From NCBI GenBank assembly GCA_964017185.1, contig OZ024880.1:41568329-41632328 (forward strand): a stretch of 64,000 nt of DNA. The letters run 5' to 3'. This document shows, piece by piece, positions 11,276 through 14,200 of the stretch. The notes beneath the pieces were generated by a model, which saw only the letters and a program-made list of their open reading frames with translations, was not told where the DNA came from and ran no database searches. The translations under genes and the position numbers were made by a program. Position 1 is the first letter of the stretch, and every line of letters starts with the position of its first letter. This DNA is from Rugalucina vietnamica. Lineage: Eukaryota > Mollusca > Bivalvia > Lucinida > Lucinidae.

Positions 11276-14200
11276 CTGCAAGATAAAATGTGATCATCAT
11301 TGGTACATGTACTTGGTTTTTATAGATGACAGATATCTGCAAGATAGAATATGAACTGATCATCATTGGTACTTGGGTATTTATGAGTGACAGATATCTG
11401 CAAGAAAGAATATTTATGAACCAATCATCAATTGGTACTTGGTTTTTATGGTTGACAGATATCTGCAAGAAAAAATATTTATCAACCAATCATCAATTGG
11501 TACTTGGTTTTTATGGTTGACAGATATCTGCAAGACAGCATATGAACTGATCATCATTGGTACTTGGGTTTTATGGATAACAGATATCTGCAAGAAAAAA
11601 TATTTATGAACCAATCATCAATTGGTACTTGGTTTTTATGGTTGACAGATATCTGCAAGACAGCATATGAACTGATCATCATTGGTACTTGGGTTTTATG
11701 GATAACAGATATCTGCAAGAAAAAATATTTATGAACCAATCATCAATTGGTACTTGGTTTTTATGGGTGACAGATATCTGCAAGATAGAATATCTATCAA
11801 CCAATCATCATTGGTACTTGTTTATATGGGTGAAAGATATCTGTAAGAAAAGACTATATGAATGAAACAGTGTTCTTGTTTTCTATGGGTGACAGATATC
11901 TGCAAGAAAGGACTATGTACAAACTATCATTGGTACTCATATTTTTATGCTTTACAGATATTTGCAAGAAAGAATATAATCAATCATCATTTTTACTTGT
12001 TCTTCAGTCATGGGTGACAGATATCTGCAAGACGGAATATGTATGAACCAATCATCATTGGTGACAGATATCCCTAAGATAGAATATGAACCATCATCAT
12101 TGGTATTTGGGTTTCATGGATGACAGATATCTGCAAGACAGAATATGAGCCATGAAACTGGGCTTTGTTTGTTTGTTTTTGTTTGTTTTTGTTTGTTTTA
12201 TTGCTTCCAATTATAATCAACAGCTTTGGTGATGAAAGTAAGGTCAATTATCATAACCACACCGTTCCTGGGCAATCATGAGAGGCAGATTACCAGTACT
12301 TAGTGCACATTTCTTTCACTACTAACTGACCTTCATCTATCAGCAGAGGAAGGAAAAAATCGCAGCAGAAAATGGCATTTGAAAAAATGCCAAGGCACAT
12401 GGGGCAAGCTAAATTCTGCTTGCAGGTGTGCCAGGTGTTTGCAGGTTACTCCCATTTTCGCCCCATTTACTGTTTGGCCCACCTCATATGAATTGAAATA
12501 ATCTTGAACTGAATGTAAAACCGTTACATGAGTATGTCTTTCTAAACAACTGCTCTTTGCAAGTTATGCAGTCTAGCTAAACAGGGAAAGGAAACTAATT
12601 TTACTTACTGTACATGGAGGCTGCATCCAGGGCTCACCATCTATCTGCATGGGAAATCTCTTCCTTGTCCTGAAAATACAAGAGGCAGTAAATAAGCCTA
12701 CATGTCCTGGCCCTGAGGTTATAAACATTTTTCATGTTCAACTCGGCTGAGACTAAAATTTATTCTGCTTATAAATGTTATCAGCAGGATAAATTACTGT
12801 CTTAATGCACTAAAACCAGAAATGTCAGGTGAATTTGACTATTTCAATATTTATGGGCTATTTTTTACATTTCATGCTCAGCTCAGTTGAGCATGAACAT
12901 TTTTTATGAAACTGGGGCCCAACATGTTGAAATACTCCCATGCAATTTACTGATGATTATGATGATGAAGATGATTCTCTGACCTACCTTATAACAACTG
13001 TTGAGCACTGTGCCAGTCTCTTGCCAGAAGCCCGCAGCCCGGCATATACCTGGGCAGCATGCATAGAGTTTTCCAGGCCCACAACCTCAATCATTCTGTC
13101 ACCAACATCTGCAAGAAGACAATAAGCTATTGGTTGGTTGTTCTACATAGGCAAAGACATTATTATTTTTTTTTTTTTGGGGGGGGGGGGGGGGGCAACA
13201 GGCATAAAGAGCAAGATGGCTAGCTTTTTTCCCAGCAAAGCATCTACCAGGCCCTGAGGTTATAAAACTTTTTTTTCATGCTCAACTCAGCTGAGCATGA
13301 AATTTAAACTGCTAACAAATATTGAAATAGCCAAAATAGATAAAAATTTTTAAAAGTTTTAGATCCCTAAAGCCTGTAATTTATCCTGCTGATAAATGTT
13401 AAAATGCCAACAATTGTTGGCATTTTAAAATTGTTGGCATTTTAACCTTTATGAGCAGGATAAATTTTAGTCTCAGCAGAGCTGAGCATGAAAATTTTTT
13501 TTGTAACCCCAGGACCTGCCTAGAATCCAACAAAAACAAAGATGGAGAGGACATTAAAAGAAGCAGACAGAATAATTGACAACAAATACAAGATCCGTGT
13601 CATGATTAAAACTGGATTTTCGGCTATGCAGTAGCTGCACAGCTGATCAGTGCCTTTGTTTTCGCTTCTTGGTTAGTACAATCCCTCTTCTTAAATCTGA
13701 AATTTTCAGCGTCTGGCCTTTTTCTGAGACTGTACAAGCCAGTTTATGTCGGACCTGGTCGGAAACCCCTAAGACCGGTTTTCTTGTGTTGTATTTTGGG
13801 TGCTACAACATCCTAATGTTGGGTAGAAGTCCCATACCAGAGGACAAATGGTCCTGTAAATGCCCACCTGAGATCTGATTACCAATAAACCTTTGAATAT
13901 TATGGTTTTATAGACCCAGGGCAGAGACAGATGATCTCCTGGGGTCATTTGTTTTTCAGAAATATTACTATTCTGTCCATTTGCCCACTTCACGCTGGGT
14001 ACCTGCCTATCCTATAAGCTCACTTTGTGAACCTACGGCTCAGGTGAGCTATAAATGGAGGCAAGGTCCCGACGAGACTGGGACGCTAAGCCAAAAATCG
14101 AAGCTATTTGAACTTATTACTGTTCAGACATAGCTGTGATATTGTGAACCTGTTCAACCAGTTTGCTCTGATATTCACCCACACTCCTTATTCACGAGTG

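Follow-up and report, generated by a model that had tools for sequence, protein, structure and literature searches.

Minisatellites whose units span an exon-intron boundary have been described in lancelets, in which these "mirages" occur on both the acceptor and the donor side in several genes of one genome; many but not all of the copies keep the AG or GT, and regular splicing is reported to be undisturbed (PMC3087553, PMC3902484). In the lancelet gene BflGb6, the 3′ end of an intron and the 5′ part of an exon are duplicated, as they are in the diacylglycerol kinase (DGK) gene analyzed here, but the two BflGb6 haplotypes have six and three units, compared with 14 extra acceptor copies in the DGK gene. 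Human IFI6 is similar in that its splice site recurs in a minisatellite located at the edge of an exon (cited in PMC4526556 and PMC2572611). It differs in that two downstream units are reported to serve as donors, yielding three mRNA species (PMC4526556), whereas the main DGK array consists of acceptors and use of its copies was not found among the four proteins listed of eight candidates in the search described below. Earthworm metallothionein genes are like the DGK gene in that exon copies are absent from the mRNA; minisatellites lie in their introns, and a duplicated fourth exon is missing from the transcript (PMC12783039). The product predicted from a DGK decoy can be compared with human DGKβ SV3′, a splice variant of a kinase of this type that lacks 35 C-terminal residues and is reported to have similar activity but altered localization (PMC3224667, PMC4005014); it involves a single alternative 3′ end and no array.

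We class the arrays in the DGK gene with the mirages known from lancelets, here in a mollusc; no mollusc mirage appeared among the top-ranked papers found in one open library, which is no proof of absence. Four of six features characteristic of mirages were found at this locus, namely a boundary-spanning unit, a position beside an authentic boundary that is kept in the mRNA, partial retention of AG or GT, and turnover of the minisatellite kind. Apart from the host, the locus differs from the lancelet cases in that the main array precedes a terminal exon, so that its decoys would alter the C terminus, and in that three arrays of differing divergence are present in one gene.

The window, by which we mean the whole 64-kb stretch of DNA that was analyzed, carries on its minus strand 15 mapped exons that correspond to residues 344–893 of a DGK protein, P0001, and span ∼42 kb; residues 1–343 of P0001 have no match within the 64-kb window. 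A Pfam scan of P0001 identifies DAG_kinase_N, EF hands, C1, catalytic, and accessory domains, the composition of a type I DGK, and among its best matches are mollusc proteins annotated as "diacylglycerol kinase beta-like" (Mercenaria, 92% identity; Dreissena, 90%). P0001 itself has 893 amino acids and derives from a 3,246-nt contig with no introns; its source label, "lgn," presumably denotes the Logan assemblies of public reads. We take the contig to represent spliced RNA because the 893 residues are encoded without introns. The last 191 residues of P0001 are identical (191/191) to the product of the five terminal exons when these are spliced at their true junctions, covering all three of the arrayed boundaries, and in the rest of the mapped part, exon-edge residues aside, P0001 and the window show four differences in two stretches, a closeness that places its source in the same or a sister species. 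The match of the ends to the true joins shows that the acceptor at 11275 is in use, as judged from one transcript-derived protein that does not give the fraction of molecules so spliced. Two Biomphalaria glabrata DGK β proteins (P0063 and P0064) end in TIYIKIEE rather than in the usual tail, diverging a few residues past the same junction; these ends represent either an alternative 3′ end or an annotation error.

The coding part of the true terminal exon (11186–11275, minus strand, as are all features of the gene) specifies 29 residues and the stop and is identical to the C terminus of P0001. Its acceptor is TATCTTGCAG/ATATCT, the slash marking the junction, and it is joined in phase 0 to the penultimate exon (12609–12669; donor ACA/GTAAGT). 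Immediately upstream, in 11276–12150, lie 14 tandem copies of a unit composed of the last ∼20 intron bases and the first ∼41 exon bases, with decoy exon starts at 12130, 12071, 12024, 11961, 11899, 11840, 11777, 11712, 11652, 11587, 11527, 11462, 11397, and 11336, preceding the true start at 11275. The exon start follows CAG in 12 of the 14 copies, and AG occupies the splice position in the same number; the exceptions are 12071, which has GGG (with a TTAG that ends two bases further upstream), and 11961, which has CAA. Aligned identity of the copies to the true junction, with the AG left out, is 0.81–0.96 (mean 0.89). The 16-mer TCTTGCAGATATCTGT, searched with up to three mismatches, finds all 15 copies in the 64 kb and, besides these, three plus-strand sites and one minus-strand site, the latter being 13108, the acceptor of another exon of the same DGK gene. 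Because matches outside the array are so few in the 64 kb, the array is far from chance. The sequence-only reading of this DNA had described about 14 tandem copies of the acceptor of the last exon, 12 of them with CAG, had assigned that exon to a DGK, and had predicted that read-through from 11777 would end after 32 residues; its coordinates, count, and register agree with ours, the length of the read-through is exact, and the assignment is supported. The two further boundary arrays of the gene and the previously described mirage type were both absent from that account.

The spacing of the acceptor copies varies from 47 to 65 nt and is mixed modulo 3. Tandem Repeats Finder (TRF) reports a period of 65 with 13.3 copies in 11234–12062, with extra rows of 125 and 190 bp in the same stretch. 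Within 11463–11712 there are two nearly identical 125-bp dimers (60 + 65); units 11712 and 11587, and units 11652 and 11527, are 100% alike in an acceptor-centered alignment, the second pair showing one difference in another alignment, which suggests a recent expansion. The most diverged copies, from 12130 to 11840, make up the distal part (11837–12150), and both copies that have lost the AG fall there. Judged by eye, this is turnover as in minisatellites, with a homogenized center and diverged units at the far end. A 34-nt piece of the spacer folds as a hairpin at −5.0 kcal/mol or below in 5 of 15 copies.

Testing 28 of the 29 junctions against the window (all but the acceptor of the first mapped exon; the donor near 42959 is poorly placed) gave three with same-strand arrays, the acceptor at 11275 and the donors at 26969 and 25374, and in each case the copies are all intronic. 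The first donor array (26675–26940) follows the exon encoding MKNKLWYF...HEDIDIM (26969–27058; donor ATG/GTAAAT) and consists of seven extra copies of the exon end and donor, with the repeated unit ATAGATATAATG/GTAAATATACC, placed downstream in the intron; at identities of 0.97–1.00, with GT kept in six of seven, it is young. The second (24263–25233), after the exon encoding CDGYSLDL...GIAVQ (25374–25587; donor AAG/GTGTGT), has seven spaced copies of the exon end and donor with identities of 0.78–0.88 and GT kept in four, and is older. Of the decoy donors that were translated, two would add 13 or 34 in-frame residues, whereas the rest would truncate the protein. A survey of protein-kinase exons elsewhere (14 boundary windows at 6 loci) gave one 16-nt match past an exon and no array, but the difference between 0/14 there and 3/28 here is not significant (chance 0.29), and the numbers are too small to call the DGK gene special.

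The acceptor at 27059 and the donors at 42959 and 49160 also match elsewhere in the window; these matches were taken for dispersed repeats and were not counted as arrays. Repeats of other kinds are present as well. Six tandem arrays with periods of 147–191 bp occupy 28114–29279, 34881–35701, 35766–37240, 38288–39689, 40700–42026, and 59374–61043, the first five sitting between mapped DGK exons, and we presume that they may be bivalve satellites of ∼160 bp. A segment at about 17528–17253 (minus strand) resembles the head of a tRNA-derived SINE (GTGGCGTTGTGGTAGCGC...GGTTCGATCCC); ARAGORN found no tRNA in the 64-kb window.

When 101 bases spanning the true acceptor were searched against the genome (1.09 Gb, 47 contigs), 12 places matched, all within the array; such counts are lower bounds, and absence of a match is no proof of rarity. 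A loose motif of the terminal-exon block is present near the C terminus in 113 of the 120 homologues listed. Since the exon block is old and the unit was matched at this locus alone, the exon is the source and the array is derived from it, the direction that had been proposed from the sequence. One of the contigs, C47 (30,680 bp), contains a COX1 frame with nine TGA codons and is presumably the mitochondrial genome.

The reading that we prefer, and to which we would assign a probability of about 0.76, is that this is a neutral mirage, a boundary-spanning minisatellite whose copies decay neutrally while the true acceptor is used in the dominant mRNA. The first step would have been a tandem duplication that took in ∼20 bases from the end of the intron along with ∼41 bases of the terminal exon; further copies of the unit may then have arisen by unequal exchange or slippage within the intron, where they would be tolerated and would decay neutrally. 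In the dominant mRNA, the true acceptor at 11275 would still be the one to which the spliceosome joins the penultimate exon, with some decoys possibly used at a low level to give a DGK without its basic tail. Three possibilities had been left open by the sequence-only reading, a splice-site buffer, a source of alternative C termini, and neutral satellite growth. The last fits best because the splice dinucleotides have decayed in step with the remainder of each copy, neither spacing nor frame is kept, and the spliced transcript uses the true site; the buffer and a maintained source of C termini are not supported, with no decoy product among the four proteins listed of eight candidates, itself a weak negative.

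The dinucleotide comparison uses, as neutral expectation, survival equal to the square of copy identity. The numbers kept are 12/14 for the acceptor array and 6/7 and 4/7 for the two donor arrays, against expectations of 11.2, 6.9, and 4.8, or 22/28 in all versus 23.0 (P(≤) 0.39, P(≥) 0.78), although local alignment inflates identity and hence expected survival. With the unit-wide substitution rate of the main array, 11.5 of 14 AGs are expected and 12 are observed. No selection for or against the decoys is seen, at moderate power. The junction core, from −8 to +8, has diverged less than any other stretch of the unit, with 6 substitutions versus 15.7 expected and no indel inside. For substitutions, p is 0.012 for this window alone and 0.22 for any window, and when indel openings are added, 0.0006 and 0.019, but it should be noted that the −8 to +8 window was picked after the alignment had been inspected, and these values only weakly mark the junction as the least diverged part. 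Strong selection on the core was considered and rejected, as an any-window p of 0.0001–0.0002 rested on the per-column count of a single 17-column deletion in unit 12071. The same artifact affected a comparison in which the array gave 0.0002 (0.0018 for the TRF part), whereas none of 29 other arrays fell below 0.038. The latter are TRF rows in 311 kb with periods of 20–200 and at least four copies, overlapping rows having been dropped; the donor array at 26722 is among them, and the majority show less divergence than the acceptor array. Nor is an acceptor motif within an array rare as such, as in 6 of the 29 the acceptor-like sites on one strand likewise number at least 0.9 per copy. Two other candidates were considered by eye, in-frame micro-exons (ISVTHKNQ, 24 nt, with the donor-like GTACCA), for which the donor consensus is poor, and a U12-type site (the ATATC start), for which the match fails past five bases.

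An alternative that we consider unlikely is that the decoys are used on purpose, to produce a DGK that retains the accessory domain but lacks the conserved tail and has altered membrane targeting. The strongest reason for it is the human SV3′ variant described above, and the tail is similar in the molluscs listed. We take the 35 residues missing from SV3′ to be those of the homologous last exon. In P0001, Pfam places the end of the accessory domain at residue 857, and the terminal junction falls at 864/865, so that decoy products would lose the tail and keep the domain. When scored with a matrix built from the 13 other acceptors of the gene, the 12 AG decoys reach 5.4–10.0 bits, compared with 8.8 for the true acceptor and 1.9–15.8 for all 14 acceptors of the gene; 4 of the 14 decoys score above the true acceptor, and all 12 AG decoys exceed the 95th percentile of 3,581 AG sites on the same strand of the window. 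As these scores are on a par with those of real acceptors, some use of decoys is to be expected, which, like the low divergence of the core, counts against the neutral reading; purposeful use would also agree, weakly, with that low divergence. However, the decoy AGs are retained no better than drift predicts, and translation from the 14 decoy starts gives 14 different tails of 6–67 residues, none of which keeps the true C-terminal tail, and no frame is kept. A further AG lies 11–17 nt upstream in 6 of the 12 AG decoys, whereas the AG-free stretch of the 14 real acceptors is at least 16 nt with a median of 35 (one-sided Mann-Whitney p = 0.064 for decoys versus real acceptors). A profile search with nine decoy-tailed ends revealed no decoy product among the four listed of eight candidates (E up to 10), three of the four having ordinary DGK ends and the fourth a different tail; the negative is a weak one, as the query was short and the database was clustered at 90% identity and restricted to short proteins.

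The same competent scores would suit a weakly harmful array, in which decoys are used often enough to cut DGK output while drift allows the array to persist, and the transcript evidence gives no fraction of decoy use that would argue otherwise. We regard this as quite improbable, given that there is no excess loss of AG or GT (P(≤22/28) 0.39). A graded switch, in which more decoys per allele would yield a larger share of tail-less, mislocalized kinase and targeting would vary between individuals with array length, is a speculation to which we attach very little weight. Less weight still is given to the view that the unused array acts as a splice-site buffer or factor sponge, binding U2AF or other factors and modulating how fast or how accurately the last intron is removed. 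The many UCUUGCAG repeats in one intron and, weakly, the low divergence of the core are what such a role would lead one to expect, but a buffer of acceptors would not account for the two arrays that this gene carries on the donor side, and retention of the dinucleotides is as under drift. An assembly artifact is scarcely credible, for although tandem repeats are error-prone, a single assembly is involved, and the two 125-bp dimers are nearly identical, the copies differ by 4–19% from the true junction and mostly from each other, as one read recopied would not, and the window lies inside a 55-Mb contig; the doubt really touches the exact copy count alone.

In the terminal intron of this gene, 15 similar 3′ splice sites follow one another, of which 13 have AG at the junction, and determining which acceptor wins would test how the spliceosome chooses among near-equal sites, whether by scanning, by proximity, or through the downstream exon. 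Together, the three arrays, each with its own degree of divergence, provide a natural series within one gene, and the decay along that series gauges any selection against decoy splice sites.
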